DNA from: a virus
Direction: 5' to 3' (one strand)
IMG/VR virus record: IMGVR_UViG_3300021376_000116
Coordinates: 1 to 44,041 of that record
DNA: 44,041 nt
Positions within the stretch are counted from its first letter, which is position 1; every line of letters starts with the position of its first letter. This document shows positions 13,712 to 32,763 of the stretch, piece after piece. Made by a program: the position numbers and the translations under genes. Below the pieces are notes generated by a model. The model worked only from the letters and a program-made list of their open reading frames with translations, did not search any database and was not told the DNA's origin.

Positions 13712-14938
13712 TTATACCTGCTTATCTTCAAAGTCTTTATACCTATAGTATCCCTTGTCAAAATCACACTGTACTAGAAAATCACCCATAAACCCATTTC
13801 GGTTCTTTCTAAAAGCACACTCAATAACATCACTATTGGCACCACGACCTAGGGCCAGCACCCAGTCAGCGTCATATGCAATCTGCCTTGACCATGCTGT
13901 TTGACCAAGCGTTGGGACAGCCTCTAGTTTGGTCACATCGTCTGGGGTAGCAGAAGAAATAGCGATAATGGGAACTTCTTCTGCAATGGCCATTAGTTTA
14001 AGTTCACGAGATAGGTTTTTCATGCGTACCGTCTCATTTTCAGATTTTTGGTTTGGAGACATTAGTTGTAGGTAGTCAACAATAACGAAGTCTGGCTTAT
14101 ACTGATCTATCTTTCCACGAAGCACAGATGGGTTAATTTCTCCACCCTGATCGTTTGAAACAATGTGGAACTCTGGCTTGCCTTGTAGATTTTTACTATG
14201 CCAATCTTTTAGCATCTCTAGTTCAATTTCTCCATTGCTAAGTTTTCTATGAGACCAACGGCCCTCGCCCATAATTGTAAATACACGATTGCGAACTTCT
14301 GCCTCGCTCATTTCAAGGCTTATGATTAGTGGGCTACGACCCTGTTTCCAAGCCTGTACGGCGAAATAGAGAGCCAACCACGACTTTCCTATACCTGGAT
14401 ATGCAAGGAACACTCCCAACTGCCCTGGCATGATTCCAGAAGGTAAATAGTTATCAAACCCTGGAAGCCCAGTCTTAATCCCAATATATCCCAGTTCCTT
14501 CTGCTTCTTTACATTTTCAAAATATGCAATGGCAGACTCTAAGTCTGTTACATCAATATCTCTAATAGCAGCAGTATTCTTTTTTAACTCTGATGTCTGA
14601 GTAATTAAATTTTCTAACGCTTTACCGCCCTCGCCCTGCTGTACATCAGTAGCAGCAGACCTAAGAATATCTTTTAGACTATCCCTTAAGTATTCACCTT
14701 GCAGTTCTTCAAGGTGGTGCCTTGTTGCTCCAACGCCTGGAACTGGATCAAAGTCTCTAAACTTTTCTCTAACTAGGTCACTTGGTGGCAAGGAAGAATT
14801 ATTTTCAAAATACAGTCTTATGAAATTCCAAATATCTCCGTGTGTTTTTAAGAGGTTTTCTACATTAGCCTGTAAGAGAACATGTATCTGCTTGTCTTGC
14901 AGCACTGCAGAAATTAATTTAGATTCTACATCGTTCAT
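13712..14938 (-). CDS. dnaB: DnaB-type replicative helicase
   Basis: A 408-residue RecA-fold helicase. The N-terminal helical domain (about residues 1-125) is followed by a linker and the motor domain. Walker A is AYPGIGKSW at about 179-187, the catalytic Glu segment is SLEMSEAEVRNR near 208, Walker B is FVIVDYLQLM near 284-293, and a later strand with sensor role is IIAISSATPDD. The protein should unwind DNA 5' to 3' at the fork and bind the phage primase. ATG 14938 overlaps the stop of a small membrane protein gene (ATGA). No separate helicase loader is clearly identified. Confidence 0.93.
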   Translation of the reverse strand: MNDVESKLISAVLQDKQIHVLLQANVENLLKTHGDIWNFIRLYFENNSSLPPSDLVREKFRDFDPVPGVGATRHHLEELQGEYLRDSLKDILRSAATDVQQGEGGKALENLITQTSELKKNTAAIRDIDVTDLESAIAYFENVKKQKELGYIGIKTGLPGFDNYLPSGIMPGQLGVFLAYPGIGKSWLALYFAVQAWKQGRSPLIISLEMSEAEVRNRVFTIMGEGRWSHRKLSNGEIELEMLKDWHSKNLQGKPEFHIVSNDQGGEINPSVLRGKIDQYKPDFVIVDYLQLMSPNQKSENETVRMKNLSRELKLMAIAEEVPIIAISSATPDDVTKLEAVPTLGQTAWSRQIAYDADWVLALGRGANSDVIECAFRKNRNGFMGDFLVQCDFDKGYYRYKDFEDKQV

Positions 14939-23397: not shown

Positions 23398-24038
23398 TAT
23401 ACTTCTTCCAGTGTTACTGAAACATTCCAGTAGTCAAATTTAGTTCCTCGTTTTTCAACTGAAAACGAAAAATCACTAATGAACATTTCAATTAATTGAT
23501 TATATTGCTGAAGGTGATCATATGGCTCTAATGTTCCTTTAAATATTCCTTTTCTATCATATGTAAGAAATACCCAGAAAGAACCTTTATGTGAATCATA
23601 CCATTCTTGCATGTCTGCTCCGCCTGCACCGCCGTCTGTAGTGTATGCTTTATGTGGAGACAACCCAGTAGCGGGATCAAAGTTTGGGAAATTTTCATGT
23701 GACCTAGACGGAATCATATCCCAACTAGTGCTTATCGTAGTCTTATCTGAAATGTGATATGATCTCATTCGACCATTAATCATTCGCTCCCGTTTTTCAA
23801 TTCTCTCATTTTTAAAATCAATTGGCTGTCTATTATCATCAGTTAAAAATAAAAACTGATCAAGCAAGGATTCATCCTCAACATTTTCTGGGTTGACTCC
23901 TATTTCGTATCCATATGGTATATATAAGCCGTCTTGAAGAGTGCCAGAGTTCTCGGACCAAAGCATACCGCTTGGCCTGTTGTATTTTTTACGACCCTGT
24001 GCATAAATTACCCTAGGGTCTAAATCATCTTCTGCCAC
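23397..24038 (-). CDS. Distal tail protein candidate
   Basis: A 213-residue protein directly after the tape measure, the position of the distal tail protein in siphophages. GTG 24038 has GGGGGG a few bases upstream and overlaps the tape measure stop by 14 bases. The sequence contains a turn-rich loop with five Gly in eight residues and a late strand set (IEMFISDFSFSVEKRG, then YWNVSVTLEE) like the C-terminal strands of tail-tube-fold proteins. It would form the ring that caps the tail tube and holds the hub. Confidence 0.6.
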   Translation of the reverse strand: MAEDDLDPRVIYAQGRKKYNRPSGMLWSENSGTLQDGLYIPYGYEIGVNPENVEDESLLDQFLFLTDDNRQPIDFKNERIEKRERMINGRMRSYHISDKTTISTSWDMIPSRSHENFPNFDPATGLSPHKAYTTDGGAGGADMQEWYDSHKGSFWVFLTYDRKGIFKGTLEPYDHLQQYNQLIEMFISDFSFSVEKRGTKFDYWNVSVTLEEV

Positions 24039-27000
24039 TTATAGCCACCCCCCTAATTCTTCTGTCATCAACCCTCTTAATGGTTGCCATTACAGCCTGT
24101 GCAATATCATTAGGGTTTGCATCAGTTTTAGCATTAACAGTTAATGTGTATGTATTATTATACACTGAACCACCAGACAATTCTCCACTATTTATTTTTC
24201 TCATAGTGTCTAGTCCATATGAATCAACGGCATACTTGCTCATAATAAATTCTCCTGGAGTTAGCATTGCTGGAACAGTGTCTGTGCCTTTAGCAAATCC
24301 ACCGTTCAAGAAATAAGGAATTAGTCCTCCCATAGGTCTGTAATAAGGAATTAGTCCTCCCATAGGTCTGTAAAGTGGCTTTATCATTCCGCCCTTACTC
24401 TTAAATGCAAATCTACCTGGACTAAACTTCGCATAACTTGCTGCTTTATTTGCTGCATCAATTGCGGCTTGTGCTGCTGCGTCAGCGATTTCTTTTTGTT
24501 TGTGTTGAGCAAATAGATTTTGGTTTCTTATCCTTTGATCATATTCTGCAATTTGTCTTGCAAGAGATGCTGCGCCAATTGCACCACTTTCCTGTGCTGC
24601 CAAAGCGCTTGGCTTCATTTGAGAAATAGCATATATACGAGCCTCTTCAGGAGTTTTTGGAATAAACGGTTCGTCTTTTTTGCCTTCTTCTTTAGGCTTA
24701 TCAACACAATTTCCATTAACAAGTACTTTGCCTTCTGGACATACTTTAGGGTCAGGGCCAGGACCAGGGCCAGGGCCAGGGCCAGGACCAGGGCCAGGTG
24801 GAACAAGTAGAGCAGGAATGATTGCATCTGTGTTTACTTTTTGATTTCTATATGCATTTATTAATGAGTTTACGATATTAAGAGCATCCTGCATTTCTTT
24901 TACAAACTGGGCAGCACTTACTCTTGCAAGATCAACATTGTTTTTAATTCTTTCCCATTGATTTCTTGTTTGCCCTAATACTGTGATTCCCTCAATTGCT
25001 TTTTCTAAAGCAAGTTCATTTAGTCTAAGAGTTTCTCTATTTGGTTCAAGACTCTTTGTTTCAATCTCATAAATTTCATCTTGAATTCTTTTAATTTCTT
25101 TTTCAATTTCAATTCTGCTTTTACCATCTTTTGATCTTAATTGTCCAAGTTCAAACTGTCTTGCATTTTCTAGCGCATCCTTTTGTTTAGTTACCACATC
25201 GGCTGCAGACTGTGTCCGTAGATCTTGAGCAGCACGAGCAGCAGCAGCAATATCTCCAGATGTCAGGGCTTCTGCAAGTGTTAGTTGTCCTTTTTGCTGT
25301 TGCGATATTGCAGCATTTGCTTTTTCAACTTCATCAAGAGCCTTTAGTCTTTCATCATATTTCTCATTAACTTTGTTTTCTTGGTCCTCAATTTCTTTTA
25401 GACCAACCTCTTGTATTCTAATCTGCTCTTGCTTTATGGCAATTAGTTCTTCGGCTTTTTTAATTTCTTCTTTTAGTGGCTTATTTGCATCTTCAAAATT
25501 TAATCTTAGTTTGGTTTCTTCCACATCAAAAGCATCCATAGCATTTCCAAAGCCTTTGCTAAATATTTCCTCCATCCCGTCAATAGTTAACTGCTTAATC
25601 TTTAATTCAGTCTTTGCAGAGTCTAGCGCTGCTTGTAATAATGCGTGAAATGCTTCTTCATCGATTCCAGGGGTAATTAACATATTTACAAGTTCTGGAT
25701 TATTTAAAAGTGCATCAATAACATCAGACTGAGAAGCATTAGCCTTACTTGCAATCCCTGCAATATTGGCTGTAATATTTTTTAATAGTGTTGCTCTATT
25801 CTCTAATTCTTTGGTTTTATTAATAGCAGCCTCATTTGCAGCATATGCTTTTGCTGCTTTAGTTGCCTTCTTCCATGACTTTACTATTTTCTCTATTTGT
25901 TCATCAGATAGTTTTTTATTTGCAATTCCTGCTGCAAAGGTAGCATCTGCAACTGCTTCTAGCGCAACAGAACCTTCTACTCCCGCTGCCTGCAGTCTTT
26001 TAAGGGCTGTAGTCTGATCTCCTATTTGCCTTGCCATTTTTTGTTGATTACTGACAAAATCTCCAAGCGCAACAGATTGAAGAGCATCTCCAATACTCTT
26101 TGCACCATCTTTAATCTTACTAATATTACCCTTTGCATCAAACTCAAACAACTTACCCTTTTTTGTTTCATATTCTTTAGGATCCATACCAACTATGAGT
26201 TCAATTAGGTCTTCTCCTGCTCCTAGTTTTCTCATGTCATTTTCAATACCGCTGAAAACCCCAATAGTTTTCTTTCCACCAAACAGTTTATTTAAAGATT
26301 TAAATGACGCATCAAAACCTTCTGTAACCTTGATTTGGTTTTTACGAACATCTCTTAATTTCTTAAGAAGATCGTCTAGAGGAGAGGCCTTTACTTTTGA
26401 GCCATCTCCAGGAGTTGATCCGCCTGTTGTTGGTTTTGTATCATCTTTAGATGCTTCTGTAACTTGGAAATTTTTAGCAGTAACAAAATCAGCAAATGAT
26501 TTTCCTTTGTTTGCTCCGCCTTCCTCGTTTACCCAATTTTTATACTGCTCTTGTAAGGCTGCATCGCCTTCCATAGAAAAAAGAACTTTCATATTTTGCA
26601 AATAAACCTTTTGTTGTTCTGGTGGCAAACTATCAAAATATTCTTGATCGGCACGGAGCGCTGCCATCTCATCTTCTCCAAGTACCTTAGTTGCAATGTC
26701 TAATGTGACCTTGCCCTTAAGAGCATCAATTTTGGCAAGATCTTTCTGTAATGCTTCACGAGCATCTTCGTTTGTGTTATAGTAATTTAATAAAACATCT
26801 TGTTCTACAACCTGACCAGATTGAGCAATTTTTTGAAATAATTCAAGTTCTTTTGCTGCGCCTTTTGGTTTCTTTGCAGAAATGCGAGCAACAAACTCCG
26901 CAGACTGTTTTTTATCCTTAAACATTCCAACAATACCCATTGTCTGGTTTGCAAATTTTCCACCAAATTTTGTAATAATTTGAACAACCTTCTCAATAGA

Positions 27001-30000
27001 TTCCTTATCTTTGCCAAATGTTTCAAATATTTCAATCATTTGCATAGGATCTATTTGTCCACTACCCATTTCCATTTTTAGAGTATACTTCATTTCATCT
27101 GAAATTTTTGCATCATCGATTTGAGTCTTTGCCAATGGTGCAACATCTTCTAGTGCTGTTCCCTTATATTGTTTTGTTATTGCCTTGTTTGCACCAGTCA
27201 TTAATGCTTTTCTAGTTGCGCCCTCTGATTCTTTAAAATTCTTTTGAATGTCTTTTACAAGTGTAGAATTTTCCTCAAGCAATCTAACTCTATCCTTGGC
27301 ATAATTTCTTGAGAGTTCATCCATTTTGTTCTGATCTCCCTTAGCCCTAGCAATATCCATTTGTTTTAGATACTCTAACTCTACAGAATCTTGCATTTCT
27401 TGTTGTTGCTGAAGAGCAATTTTTTGCATAGCAACACTTGCTCCAGATGCCTGACCTATTCTTTTTTGTCTATCTTTTCTTCCATACAGATTTCCTGCAA
27501 AAGAGCCAATTCCAGTACCAACAACGGCTCCGATTTTTGTTCCAAGTGCTGCACCTGCAACCGTACCCGCTCCAGGAATAACAGATCCTATAAGCGCTCC
27601 AAGTCCTCCTCCAGCAATGGCTCCTCCAAGGGCTCCTGCTCCAGCCCCTGCTAATGTGTATCCGCCAGCAACACCTATATCTTTAAGGCCTCTCATACTC
27701 GCAAAAGATCCTGCCTCTTTTGCTTTATCTGTAGCGAGATTCATCTTATCTCTTGTATCTGTAAGAAGTTTTACTCTAATACCTATTGGATCTTTTAATA
27801 AATTTTCTCCGTTTGGACCAAGCAATGCTATTAAATCTGCATTTACTTTAATGCCAAATGAATAATCTCCAAGTTCTTGTGCAAGATTTGCCACAATGCT
27901 TCGTGCCTGTGCTGGGGTAAGTGCTCCAGATGCAACTGCAGTTGCCATTTGATTTGCAACTTGGCCTTGTGCCATATCTTTGCCACCCAACTTCATGCTT
28001 TGTGAAACATTTTTTAGCATGGCTTTACCTTGTTCTCCAGCCATGAATGATTGACCAAATGTTGTTTTTCCAGTTTGAATCTGAAAAGGAGAAAACCTTT
28101 CTTTTCTTTTTCTATCCATAATCTCACCAGCAGACACAGTGTTTGCAAATTTTGATAAACCTCTTATTGCTTGAGATCCAGAACCTAATGCTTCTGTAAG
28201 TTCTATTGCAGCATCCTGTGCCCTATCAAACTGTATTTTTTGATATGCGTATGCGGCTACTACTAGACCTACACCAACAGCAAGCGCTGCAAATTTGTTT
28301 TGAAGCATTGGCAAAATCATAGCAAGACCCATTAAAGGCATCATTATTTTTTGTGAAATTTCTCCGACTTTGCCTGGCGCCATTGACCCTATCATGGCCA
28401 AACCTGCTACTCCCATAGCAGCACCGCCCATGCCCATGCCTCCTCTAGGCTTTGGATTATTTGGGTCATCAGGCTTTGCTTTTGCTGCTTGTCTTGCTTT
28501 AAAAGATTCTAAAATTTTTGATGAGGTAGACTTCAACTTTGATTTAACTCCCGCTGCACCCATCCCCTGTTTAATAGTTTGTGTCATATTATCAGTTACA
28601 ACTTTTTGTGTAACTGCAACATCTTTAGCAATAACATTTAATTGTTTGCCAGATTTTTTTAATGAACCTATTTTTCGTCTTAAGGATTTTTGTTCTGCAT
28701 CTATTGGACCATCACCATAAAGAGCAGTTCTAGATGCTGCTGCTTTTGCTTGAGAATTTGCTTTATCGATTGCAGTTTTTACATCTTGAGAGGAAAGTGG
28801 AGCGTCTCCTTTTCCAAGAATTCTTACACCCCTTGGTCCCTGTCTAACTGATGGCGCTATTGATGCTGGGGCAATTCTTGAATCTGCTGGTCCTCCAGTA
28901 GACTTAAACTTTCTATTATTTGGCTCTGATTTTATTTCTTTAACTTTACCGTCTTTATCTTCAATAACTTCATCAGGCTTTACTAAAATAGAACTGTGCT
29001 TTTGATGTAGTGATTTCCAGTCTACCTTTAATCCTTCTCTAAGTCTGTCGAGCATAGCAACATATTGTGATTTTAGGGGATTATCTGCAGACATCTTTGC
29101 AACATATGACTCTGCATTATTTAATTGCCTTTGAATTTCTGCTTTCATTTGACGATCATATTCGGCTGGAGTCAAATTTAGAGCAATATCTTTTGTTGCA
29201 TTTGCAAACCAATTTGGAGAATTCTTTGCCTGCTTCCCTGGAACACCCTTTAGATTTTCTTCTGCCATTTCAACCAAAGATGGCATTTTAGTTTCTAATG
29301 CAGCAACACCTGACGCTTTACTTAATACTCCAGCACGACCAACATCTGTTAGGGCATTGCCACCAAGATTACCCATCTTAAGATCTTTGTCGCCACGAAG
29401 ATTTGCTGCTACTAGTTGTCTAAAGTATTGTTCTTGTGTAAATGACTTAGACATTAATTCAGCATACTTGGGATCATACTTAGATTCTAAAACAATAATT
29501 TTTCTCTTACCTTGTGGATCTGTAGGATCAATCATTGTTGCTATTTTTTGTTTTGGAACATCTAGACCTTGAACTTTTCTAGCAAAATCTGTTGCTTCTT
29601 TTTCTGCAAGAGCGTTTAATTCGCTCATCATAGGCTTTACAAAAACCCTTTGACCGTTTGGTTTTTCAAAAACTCCACCAATTTCTCTTACATCAAAACT
29701 TCTTCCTGTAGTTTTTGATACTTGTTTTCCAAAATTTGTAGGCTTCTTTTGTCCAGTTTTTGTTTTTGCTGCTTCATCTGCTATAGACTTTAAGGTTGCC
29801 TCTTGACTTCTTGCTTTTTCCATATTCTCTTGAATTAGTTCTGGTGCTGTTACTGCCCCACCACTTGTAGGCTTTTGACTTATAACTGGAGTTGTTCCTG
29901 CTCCAAGTCGATTCATATTTACAACAGTGCCATCATTAAGAGTAACTGTAGAAGATTTTGTTACAACCTTGTCAGTTCTTCCTTCCCCCGTTCCAAAACC

Positions 30001-32763
30001 CTCTTTGATATCAAAATCTTTTATAAAACCTTTATCTTTTGCATTTTGAAGTATTCTTCTGCTCTCTTCTGGAGCACTTCCAAGACCCTTACCCATGTTA
30101 AATCTTGAGTCAGTTTGATAAAGTTGCTTTGCTTTTTGATACGCTTTGTCTTCAGGGTTTATATATTTTGGAACCTGAGTTTTAAAAATATCATCTACTA
30201 TTCTGTCATTTATATATGGGCTAGTGCTTAACTTAAATGAGTCTAGGAATGCTTTATCTAAGGCTGCAGCCTGTGTTGCATTCATTCCAGATGGTTTCCA
30301 TTTTTCTGGACCTCTTCTTTCCCACTCATCTATAAATTCTTGAACTGGAACACCAGTAGTAAGGCTTGGCATTGCTTTGTTCATCCACTCAGGGAAGTCA
30401 AACACTAGGCCGTGCTTAGTTGTTGTAGTAGTAGGTATACCTTGAGATTTAAATATTTGTTCCATAGCAAGAAGTTTATTTTTTTGATCTTGCGTCATAT
30501 ATGGATTATTTTTTATAATATCTTGTATTGCTTTTGGAGTGCTCTTTCCTCCAACATGTGTCTTGTTTGTTACATTGTTATCTTTTTTAATTTCAGGGGT
30601 TCCATTGTTAAACCCTGGAATTGTTCCGCCTGCAACCATGTGCCTAATGAATGGTTTGTTTGCTGGATCCTGTGCTGGTCCTGCTGGAATAACTGCCTCT
30701 CCAGGAGAAGCAAGAATTGGAACAATATCTCCTGCACCCTTTGGTCCTGGAATGCTCGTAATACCAGTAGAATACTTTTTGCTTTGTGGCATTCTGCCTT
30801 TACCAACTGGGCCAACAAATCCTAATTGAGAAGCAATTGCATTTTTATATGCTGCTGCTAACGCATTTACTGCTGCAGTCTCAGATGTAAATGTTTGTCT
30901 TAGTTTTTGATGAACCTGATCAAGAGATGCTGCTACGGCAGATGCTTCAAGTTGTTGCTGAGTTAAATAGTCTGTCTGATTTCCAAGTATCTGTGTTGAT
31001 GCTCCAGTCCTATTAAATGCAGACTTTAAGGTTGTAAATAACTTAATTATATTAGCAAGACCATTCATTAATAGACCAAATGACATTAGTGCTACTGGCC
31101 CAATTGCACCAAGAGCAACAGTCATTATTGTCAAAAACTTTTTACTTCCATCTCCCAAGTTATTAAATTTTTCTAAAATTTTTCCAACAAACTCAACTAC
31201 AGGGGTAAGTGCTTTTAAGAACTGCTCTCCAACTGGTGCAAGAGTTACCTTTAAATCTTCTATCGATTTCTTAAATTTATAAGTTGTTGACTCTTCTATT
31301 CTTGCCAATTCTCGCTCTGAAAGAATTGCAAGTTCTTCTGTAGTTGCTTTTGTTAGTGTTAAAACACGACTTGCCTGATTGCCTTCTCTTACAACATTTT
31401 GAAACAGAGTTGATAATCTTGAAAACTGAAACTTACCAAACAACTGTTCAATTGCACGAGCACGATTAAGAGGATCTAAGGTATCTAGGGCATGTGCAAA
31501 ACTTACTACTGTTGCTGCTACATCTCCCTGATTTGCCTCAACAATTCCCTTAATGTTGATGCCCATCTCGCCAAGCATTTTGGCTGCTTTATCAGATGGA
31601 TTAATCAATGATGCTAAACCAGACTTAAGTGCGTTGGCACCTTCTGATGCATTGATACCGCCTTCTTTCATGGCAGTTAGGAAGAACGCTAAGTCTTCTA
31701 CATCTCCACCAAGTTGCTGTACAACTGGTCCTGCTTTAGGAATAGCGATAGTTAAATCTTCAATAGATACAACGGTTTGGTTTTCAACTGCGTTAAGGAA
31801 GTCAATCTTTTTTGCTAAATCTTCTGCTGCTACACCAAACGCATTAGTTACAGATATTGTTGTTTCCAGGGCTTGCTCTTGCTCAACACCACCAAGAACA
31901 GCAAGTCTTGTTGCTTGGGAAACCTGTGCTGTAAGGTCTGCACCCATCTTGCCCATCGCTGCAGCGTTTGCTGCCATTTCCATGGTTTTTTCTACTGCAA
32001 CTCCATATTTGGTATATTCCTTGGCAAGTAGTTGAATGTTTTTAACCATTTCATTTGTTTCTTCTTGAGTGGTAAACATTTCACCATAAACACGCTTAAA
32101 TCTAATTGTTTGCTCTTCAAGTTTCATGAAAGTTTTTGCAGCGACAGACCCAAGAAGCATAAGCGGAACTGTGAAACCAACCATCAACTGACGGCCAGCC
32201 CATTGAGTATTCTTACCAAAGTTTAGAAGATTTGTTGATCCCTGTCTTAGTAATTGATTTAAAAGTTGTTGGCGCTGTGCTGCTATTTGTGTCTGGGTTG
32301 CTAGATTTTTCATGTCCAGCGTAAGCGGTCTTACCGCAATGGCCTGAAGTGCTCCATTGGCACCACGACCCATTTTTATATATTGAGTCTGTATGTCTTT
32401 TACACGCTCTCGTGCAACTTTATTTATTGTTTCAAATTCAGACTTAAAAAGCCTACCAAAAGTTTTAGTGGCTGCCCCAGTATATCTAAAATATTCTCTG
32501 GAGGATAGTTTATTCTTTTCTAAAGCATTAGTAAAGTGCTCTGTGCTTGTAGCAACCGTTCTCATAGTTGCTTGGAACTTGCCAGTAGCATTTATACTGT
32601 TCATCAAGTTTTGTGCTTGATTTGCTGCTACCGCTGACGCTGCTGCGCCAGACTTTGCCATCTGTGTATGGAAGGCCGATATTTGACGCTGTAGCAGTTT
32701 TAGACTTGCTAAAGCATCTGACGTATCAATATTTACATGAATATTGGATTGAACATCAGCCAT
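24025..32763 (-). CDS. Tape measure protein, very long, with a kinase-like insert
   Basis: A 2912-residue tail length-setting protein. Residues about 215-470 match the TP901-type tape measure core (YGEMFTTQEETNEMVK, then MAANAAAMGKMGADLT, then MKEGGINASEGANALKSGLASL). A D-x-VP-x-x-x-x-PGE motif occurs near 675 and again near 2824. Between them lie an insert with kinase-like residues (K1043, E1056, D1127 to N1132, D1140), two hydrophobic segments (about 1444-1508) and a glycine-zipper stretch (about 1694-1764). A Gly-Pro repeat (about 2655-2672) precedes a Cys pair (C2675, C2686). The rest is coiled coil. At about 0.15 nm per residue the tail would be up to some 430 nm. It starts with AAGAGGTG before ATG and follows the chaperone genes. 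Confidence 0.93.
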   Translation of the reverse strand: MADVQSNIHVNIDTSDALASLKLLQRQISAFHTQMAKSGAAASAVAANQAQNLMNSINATGKFQATMRTVATSTEHFTNALEKNKLSSREYFRYTGAATKTFGRLFKSEFETINKVARERVKDIQTQYIKMGRGANGALQAIAVRPLTLDMKNLATQTQIAAQRQQLLNQLLRQGSTNLLNFGKNTQWAGRQLMVGFTVPLMLLGSVAAKTFMKLEEQTIRFKRVYGEMFTTQEETNEMVKNIQLLAKEYTKYGVAVEKTMEMAANAAAMGKMGADLTAQVSQATRLAVLGGVEQEQALETTISVTNAFGVAAEDLAKKIDFLNAVENQTVVSIEDLTIAIPKAGPVVQQLGGDVEDLAFFLTAMKEGGINASEGANALKSGLASLINPSDKAAKMLGEMGINIKGIVEANQGDVAATVVSFAHALDTLDPLNRARAIEQLFGKFQFSRLSTLFQNVVREGNQASRVLTLTKATTEELAILSERELARIEESTTYKFKKSIEDLKVTLAPVGEQFLKALTPVVEFVGKILEKFNNLGDGSKKFLTIMTVALGAIGPVALMSFGLLMNGLANIIKLFTTLKSAFNRTGASTQILGNQTDYLTQQQLEASAVAASLDQVHQKLRQTFTSETAAVNALAAAYKNAIASQLGFVGPVGKGRMPQSKKYSTGITSIPGPKGAGDIVPILASPGEAVIPAGPAQDPANKPFIRHMVAGGTIPGFNNGTPEIKKDNNVTNKTHVGGKSTPKAIQDIIKNNPYMTQDQKNKLLAMEQIFKSQGIPTTTTTKHGLVFDFPEWMNKAMPSLTTGVPVQEFIDEWERRGPEKWKPSGMNATQAAALDKAFLDSFKLSTSPYINDRIVDDIFKTQVPKYINPEDKAYQKAKQLYQTDSRFNMGKGLGSAPEESRRILQNAKDKGFIKDFDIKEGFGTGEGRTDKVVTKSSTVTLNDGTVVNMNRLGAGTTPVISQKPTSGGAVTAPELIQENMEKARSQEATLKSIADEAAKTKTGQKKPTNFGKQVSKTTGRSFDVREIGGVFEKPNGQRVFVKPMMSELNALAEKEATDFARKVQGLDVPKQKIATMIDPTDPQGKRKIIVLESKYDPKYAELMSKSFTQEQYFRQLVAANLRGDKDLKMGNLGGNALTDVGRAGVLSKASGVAALETKMPSLVEMAEENLKGVPGKQAKNSPNWFANATKDIALNLTPAEYDRQMKAEIQRQLNNAESYVAKMSADNPLKSQYVAMLDRLREGLKVDWKSLHQKHSSILVKPDEVIEDKDGKVKEIKSEPNNRKFKSTGGPADSRIAPASIAPSVRQGPRGVRILGKGDAPLSSQDVKTAIDKANSQAKAAASRTALYGDGPIDAEQKSLRRKIGSLKKSGKQLNVIAKDVAVTQKVVTDNMTQTIKQGMGAAGVKSKLKSTSSKILESFKARQAAKAKPDDPNNPKPRGGMGMGGAAMGVAGLAMIGSMAPGKVGEISQKIMMPLMGLAMILPMLQNKFAALAVGVGLVVAAYAYQKIQFDRAQDAAIELTEALGSGSQAIRGLSKFANTVSAGEIMDRKRKERFSPFQIQTGKTTFGQSFMAGEQGKAMLKNVSQSMKLGGKDMAQGQVANQMATAVASGALTPAQARSIVANLAQELGDYSFGIKVNADLIALLGPNGENLLKDPIGIRVKLLTDTRDKMNLATDKAKEAGSFASMRGLKDIGVAGGYTLAGAGAGALGGAIAGGGLGALIGSVIPGAGTVAGAALGTKIGAVVGTGIGSFAGNLYGRKDRQKRIGQASGASVAMQKIALQQQQEMQDSVELEYLKQMDIARAKGDQNKMDELSRNYAKDRVRLLEENSTLVKDIQKNFKESEGATRKALMTGANKAITKQYKGTALEDVAPLAKTQIDDAKISDEMKYTLKMEMGSGQIDPMQMIEIFETFGKDKESIEKVVQIITKFGGKFANQTMGIVGMFKDKKQSAEFVARISAKKPKGAAKELELFQKIAQSGQVVEQDVLLNYYNTNEDAREALQKDLAKIDALKGKVTLDIATKVLGEDEMAALRADQEYFDSLPPEQQKVYLQNMKVLFSMEGDAALQEQYKNWVNEEGGANKGKSFADFVTAKNFQVTEASKDDTKPTTGGSTPGDGSKVKASPLDDLLKKLRDVRKNQIKVTEGFDASFKSLNKLFGGKKTIGVFSGIENDMRKLGAGEDLIELIVGMDPKEYETKKGKLFEFDAKGNISKIKDGAKSIGDALQSVALGDFVSNQQKMARQIGDQTTALKRLQAAGVEGSVALEAVADATFAAGIANKKLSDEQIEKIVKSWKKATKAAKAYAANEAAINKTKELENRATLLKNITANIAGIASKANASQSDVIDALLNNPELVNMLITPGIDEEAFHALLQAALDSAKTELKIKQLTIDGMEEIFSKGFGNAMDAFDVEETKLRLNFEDANKPLKEEIKKAEELIAIKQEQIRIQEVGLKEIEDQENKVNEKYDERLKALDEVEKANAAISQQQKGQLTLAEALTSGDIAAAARAAQDLRTQSAADVVTKQKDALENARQFELGQLRSKDGKSRIEIEKEIKRIQDEIYEIETKSLEPNRETLRLNELALEKAIEGITVLGQTRNQWERIKNNVDLARVSAAQFVKEMQDALNIVNSLINAYRNQKVNTDAIIPALLVPPGPGPGPGPGPGPGPDPKVCPEGKVLVNGNCVDKPKEEGKKDEPFIPKTPEEARIYAISQMKPSALAAQESGAIGAASLARQIAEYDQRIRNQNLFAQHKQKEIADAAAQAAIDAANKAASYAKFSPGRFAFKSKGGMIKPLYRPMGGLIPYYRPMGGLIPYFLNGGFAKGTDTVPAMLTPGEFIMSKYAVDSYGLDTMRKINSGELSGGSVYNNTYTLTVNAKTDANPNDIAQAVMATIKRVDDRRIRGVAISGRR
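24312..24373 (-). repeat. 30-bp tandem duplication in tape measure gene
   Basis: Two perfect copies of a 30-base unit lie end to end at 24312-24341 and 24342-24371, and the identity continues two bases further. They encode two copies of a ten-residue unit ending in GLIPYY or GLIPYF. A third, worn copy (IKPLYRPMGG) lies just before. A recent in-frame slippage or unequal exchange explains this. Confidence 0.9.
24751..24800 (-). repeat. Hexanucleotide Gly-Pro-coding repeat
   Basis: About eight near-identical 6-base units (CCAGGG or CCAGGA on the plus strand) code for a run of alternating Gly and Pro in the tape measure protein. It is likely a stiff, extended linker ahead of a Cys-containing module. 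The high GC contrasts with the surrounding AT-rich DNA. Confidence 0.9.

Follow-up and report, generated by a model that had tools for sequence, protein, structure and literature searches.

The tape measure protein (TMP) encoded in a 44,041-nucleotide stretch of viral DNA (IMG/VR virus record IMGVR_UViG_3300021376_000116, positions 1 to 44,041; hereafter, the window) carries, beyond its conserved N-terminal core, a domain that we assign to a new family within the protein-kinase-like superfamily, on its HipA/CtkA side. We consider it probable that this domain is an exchangeable, virion-borne cassette that leaves the tail together with the TMP and modifies a component of the host. The carrier was identified as a TMP by its matches to Pfam PhageMin_Tail (3e-24) and to tape-measure PHROGs (5.7e-97).

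A first scan of IMG/VR retrieved 23 relatives of the domain, and wider scans raised this to 167 loci with 68 distinct domain sequences, every one of which keeps the K-x10-E pair, the DxDL-x3-N loop and an aspartate eight positions after the loop asparagine. In an alignment of 42 domain sequences (A2), showing 41–92% identity to the window, about 32–36 of 301 positions are invariant, around one in nine, and K1043 is the sole invariant lysine among the 38 in the stretch. A first-pass annotation of the sequence had proposed that residues 1020 to 1160 or so contain a strand pair with K1043, a helix glutamate (E1056), a hinge-like strand and the residues D1127, N1132 and D1140, together forming the catalytic set of a kinase-like fold. 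K1043, D1127 (positions 29383-29385), N1132 (29368-29370) and D1140 (29344-29346) do occur in that order and are invariant in the 68 distinct relatives; the free variation that the annotation had named as contrary to its proposal was not seen. Conversely, E1056 is replaced by arginine or another residue in most relatives, and the invariant helix glutamate is E1054. Having four of the five named residues invariant has a probability of about 6e-4 when all positions are taken as equal. The remaining elements also stood: GGVFEKPNGQRVFVKP starts at residue 1029, in the region where the model described below places strands β1 and β2, with K1043 in β3, and RKIIVLES starts at residue 1087, its final LES closing strands β4–β5. 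The GDKDLKMGN and DVG motifs start at residues 1124 and 1140. Estimates of dN/dS for the domain, obtained by counting, ranged from 0.09 to 0.34, indicating purifying selection. As judged from these alignments, conservation of the catalytic residues is well supported.

Modelling of A2 with AlphaFold2, which the first-pass annotation had suggested as a check, produced a confident structure (pLDDT 90.2, pTM 0.87) with its elements in kinase order: a helix, β1, β2, β3 (K1043), αC (E1054), β4, β5 (LES), αE, the catalytic loop, the DxG and a helical C-lobe. The predicted domain has the N-lobe strands β1-β2-β3 with the lysine, the αC glutamate, β4–β5 and the helical C-lobe that define the protein-kinase-like fold, and its catalytic Asp/Asn precede the metal-binding DxG in an order and at a spacing constant across the 68 sequences. 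Foldseek comparison of the window domain with the PDB returned kinase folds in all 50 listed matches, including SidJ, with the highest probability (0.95) for CtkA, at a template modelling (TM) score of 0.35. Against BFVD, the domain matched large phage proteins bearing the name portal or ADP-ribosyltransferase with a probability of 1.00, one of them with TMq 0.50, and a 1479-residue protein of Gordonia phage GodonK with 0.96; in length, the latter equals gp67, encoded by the gene directly after the portal gene. The kinase-like fold initially proposed is well supported by the predicted structure.

The domain could be connected to known kinases through a second phage family, represented by a 62-sequence profile (A4) and a 55-sequence subset of it (A6). 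Proteins of this type include Gordonia GodonK gp67, Sixama gp73, and proteins of Yersinia fHe-Yen8-01 and Pseudomonas Dolphis. Residues ~100-315 of GodonK gp67 are related to phage ADP-ribosyltransferase proteins and to proteins adjacent to the portal. The protein of the Yersinia phage carries the annotation particle-associated, and that of a Morganella phage shows Alt-like ADP-ribosyltransferase matches downstream of the domain. Comparison of A2 with A4 using hhalign gave a probability of 88% (P 3.2e-6, score 47.7), with control scores of 16.3 for reversed A4, at most 20.8 for 60 column shuffles and at most 31.3 for 60 block shuffles. The K-x10-E arrangement (K-to-E spacing of 11) is present in 68 of 68 sequences of the window family and in 56 of 59 A4 pairs. 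In turn, the AlphaFold2 model of A6 (pLDDT 96.9) matched CtkA (E 9e-6, TMq 0.68), HipA and the PI3-kinase VPS34 in Foldseek searches; Pfam HipA_C weakly matched 11 of the 62 A4 members, and hhalign of A4 against a HipA alignment gave P 4e-5. The D-to-N spacing is 5 in both the window family and HipA, and mostly 8 in A4. A distant relationship between the domain and the A4 family is well supported by these profile comparisons. Because A2 matches A4, A4 and A6 match HipA and CtkA, and A2 itself does not significantly match HipA, it is through linked steps that the domain is recognised as kinase-like, and it forms its own family and is not a HipA. Of the closeness to HipA or PI3/4-kinases first suggested, what stands is this distant kinship, through a phage family whose model resembles CtkA, HipA and VPS34, whereas membership of HipA or PI3/4-kinases proper was not supported: PI3_PI4_kinase was not among the Pfam results, and VPS34 appeared solely as a fold match of the A6 family.

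The A4 domain was found at 384 IMG/VR loci and also at 56 loci of bacterial genomes (GTDB), with examples from both collections at L178-L257 and L345-L400; the protein at L229 contains two copies. The TMP core was not found in proteins carrying the A4 domain, nor the A4 domain in 80 TMPs tested.

Several results weigh against assigning the domain to the kinases. Searches of Pfam, NCBIfam, PHROGs and PDB sequences left it unrecognised, both as a single sequence and as a profile, and direct Foldseek scores against the PDB were weak (best E 0.007, none at E 0.001, TM ~0.2-0.35). In the register that hhalign found between A2 and A4, the K, E and DxG are aligned, but the catalytic-loop D and N are out of register; the window family also has a shorter N-to-D spacing (8) than A4 (mostly 12-13) and HipA (17-19). 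A direct hhalign comparison of A2 with a small HipA alignment (A5, 7 sequences) was not significant (P 0.09). With that value and no profile match above the curated cut-off, we rejected direct membership of HipA; none of the 42 members had HipA_C or HipA_2 among its Pfam results, and a search of the record itself was negative. A search of PDB sequences, whether with phmmer or with the profile, did not match CtkA. Neither tblastn of INPHARED with the domain nor a scan of bacterial genomes with the domain pattern provided a route to a known family, and weak Pfam matches such as those to Csm1_N and Inj_translocase (E >1e-3, few members) were set aside.

To examine the setting of the domain, we scanned for the TMP core (residues 201-521) and obtained 80 loci, near-identical contigs included; seven were cut before the site, leaving 73 informative TMPs. 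The kinase-like domain was present in 44 of these, and the other 29 contained unrelated sequence in its place. When ten TMPs without the domain were aligned, the flanks were conserved up to about residue 720 and again from about residue 1326, with unrelated sequence between them, and the alternative sequences also differed from one another. In most of the aligned TMPs the slot is preceded by a VPxMLxPGE motif, VPILASPGEAVIPA in the window, which sometimes recurs past a cassette. The domain lies, as first proposed, in an insert after the conserved core, and the behaviour of this region as an exchangeable cassette is well supported by the alignments. It is possible, and we suggest it tentatively, that TMPs of this lineage are polymorphic effector carriers, in which the VPxMLxPGE-marked slot between the core and the C-terminal part holds exchangeable enzyme cassettes that would be delivered into the host cytoplasm at the start of infection.

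Examples of unrelated slot sequence were seen at L278, L285, L300, L304, L322, L339, L341 and L343. The TMPs at L310, L322, L324, L328, L329, L339 and L344 have a second internal VPAMLSPGEAVIP motif, as if they contained tandem cassettes. The sole notable Pfam match among the alternative cassettes was a weak one to DUF3626 at L339:11462-13654 (E 3.8e-5, below the 27-bit cut-off); RPTYGY sequences similar to that of L339 occur at L322 and L341. By eye, several alternative slots (L278, L304) contain a DRxH stretch, which recalls the DRGH of EndA-type nucleases.

The TMP core was matched by all 159 domain-bearing open reading frames that include a TMP N-terminus, and the remaining eight start at a contig end. 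It is common to Streptomyces and Gordonia phages and to TMPs without the kinase-like domain. Its likeness to the TMPs of those phages suggests an actinobacterial host. The relatives of the domain are metagenomic contigs. The domain-carrying TMP of L010/L318 has 3667 residues, ~700 more than most relatives. Also encoded in the window are a DNA polymerase III alpha of the phage (8521-11808) and a DnaB-like helicase (13712-14938). Coordinates of the TMP and of its elements are given in Table 1.

Table 1. Features of the tape measure protein and its kinase-like domain; residues are numbered along the protein and positions along the window.
Feature	Residues	Position	Strand	Basis
TMP open reading frame	2912 in total	24025..32763	(-)	Pfam PhageMin_Tail, tape-measure PHROGs
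Conserved TMP core	1-650	30814..32763	(-)	PHROG match spanning 38-644
VPILASPGEAVIPA motif, just ahead of the variable region	681-694	30682..30723	(-)	sequence
Variable cassette region	about 722-1325	28789..30600	(-)	alignment of TMPs without the domain
Kinase-like domain (confidently modelled part)	980-1258	28990..29826	(-)	AlphaFold2; 167 related loci
Strand β1, glycine-rich-loop equivalent, strand β2; G1020, S1022 and G1030 invariant	1013-1033	29665..29727	(-)	alignment, AlphaFold2
β3 lysine, invariant	K1043	29635..29637	(-)	alignment
Helix-αC glutamate, invariant, K-x10-E spacing	E1054	29602..29604	(-)	alignment
Strands β4–β5, ending in hinge-like LES (1092-1094, invariant)		29479..29550	(-)	alignment, AlphaFold2
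Catalytic loop DKDLKMGN; D1125, D1127 and N1132 invariant	1125-1132	29368..29391	(-)	alignment
D1140-V-G, metal-binding DxG equivalent; D1140 and G1142 invariant	1140-1142	29338..29346	(-)	alignment
Helical C-lobe	1163-1257	28993..29277	(-)	AlphaFold2 secondary structure

We regard it as likely that the domain is catalytically active; its delivery into the host seems probable to us, with rather less assurance. In the mechanism that we propose, the domain occupies a replaceable slot of the TMP, with the conserved N-terminal core on one side and the conserved C-terminal part on the other. The TMP, which fills the tail tube, leaves it at infection and would take the domain along, unfolded or rearranged in the lumen. 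Partial unfolding is assumed, since the tail lumen would probably not accommodate a kinase-sized domain in its folded state, and it has likewise been supposed for Sle1 (PMC13277306). The domain would then refold in the host cytoplasm, use ATP and, as its most likely action, phosphorylate a host protein, so that host translation or defence would be blunted at once. HipA has a tRNA synthetase as its target. Whether the chemistry is phosphorylation of a host protein or another ATP-dependent reaction is a close call, and we lean on the former only with hesitation.

The alternative that survives best retains the fold and the ATP site and changes the reaction: the domain could be an AMPylase (SelO-like), a glutamylase (SidJ-like), or a small-molecule or lipid kinase. 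We hold this to be a minority possibility, albeit a real one, since the family stands far from all annotated kinases, has an unusual N-to-D spacing and counts SidJ among its PDB fold matches; it has against it that the nearest folds are CtkA and HipA, and that the invariant set contains no known mark of AMPylation. CtkA and HipA are both protein kinases. Rather unlikely, in our opinion, is a role in the phage-producing cell or in the virion, such as modification of tail proteins or folding and assembly of the TMP, instead of that of a host-directed effector. The TMP is a late product of the producing cell, which has ATP, and the poor fit of a folded kinase domain in the tail lumen speaks for such a role; however, the domain is dispensable, as indicated by the unrelated sequence in 29 of the 73 informative TMPs that share the core, and it has distant relatives in virion-associated ADP-ribosyltransferase proteins. 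Weak direct structural scores would also suit a degenerate or structural domain with a kinase fold, whether a pseudokinase, a binding module or a spacer. Pseudokinases usually lack one catalytic residue, whereas here every catalytic residue is invariant in 68 sequences, down to ~41% identity, and no other lysine is as constant as K1043, making this explanation improbable. Finally, that the resemblance arose by chance and the domain is not kinase-like, as the empty direct sequence searches might suggest, is scarcely credible given the confident model in kinase order, kinase folds alone among the listed PDB matches, and a significant profile match with low controls to a family clearly folding as a CtkA/HipA-like kinase.

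Our literature searches, made among open-licence papers, turned up no description of a tape measure protein bearing a kinase domain. If the enzyme-bearing cassette that we favour is both active and delivered, the tail ruler would be a vehicle that places an ATP-dependent enzyme in the host ahead of phage gene expression. This would extend the precedents of MuF head proteins and of the injection-system effectors Tme and Sle1 to true phage tape measures, would account for the high variability of one part of the TMP, and would offer a testable delivery slot.

Among known kinases, the Helicobacter pylori proinflammatory kinase CtkA (PDB 3akj/3akk/3akl) provided the fold match of top probability for the window domain and the top match for its phage relatives, although the window domain alone resembles it weakly, shares no sequence match with it and lies inside a tape measure protein. 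HipA toxins (HipA_C PF07804, HipA_2 PF20613) are alike in the β3 lysine, the αC glutamate, the D-x4-N and a later metal-binding aspartate; unlike them, the window domain has no Pfam match, has a shorter N-to-D distance and is part of a virion protein. The A4 family shares the K-x10-E, the order of structural elements and a virion-associated setting, but its proteins do not have the TMP core of the window, and its D-to-N and N-to-D spacings differ. Phage head (MuF) proteins fused to predicted effectors have been described (PMC5512222), and MuF polymorphic toxins and polyvalent proteins likewise combine a structural protein with exchangeable enzyme domains whose delivery is believed to accompany that of the genome (PMC5576092, PMC5512222). 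Their carrier is a head protein, whereas that of the window is a TMP, on which no MuF head domain was found. The kinases of polyvalent proteins are a distinct group, said to be without the whole C-terminal subdomain (PMC5512222), while the model of the window domain has a helical C-lobe. Streptomyces contractile injection systems have tape-measure-related enzymatic effectors with exchangeable domains, and in Tme, which has an endonuclease domain, and in Sle1 the functional domain is a replaceable part of a tape-measure-derived carrier (PMC11126660, PMC13277306). These are injection-system effectors with a C-terminal cargo, for which no kinase domain is reported, whereas in the window the carrier is a true phage TMP and the cassette is internal.
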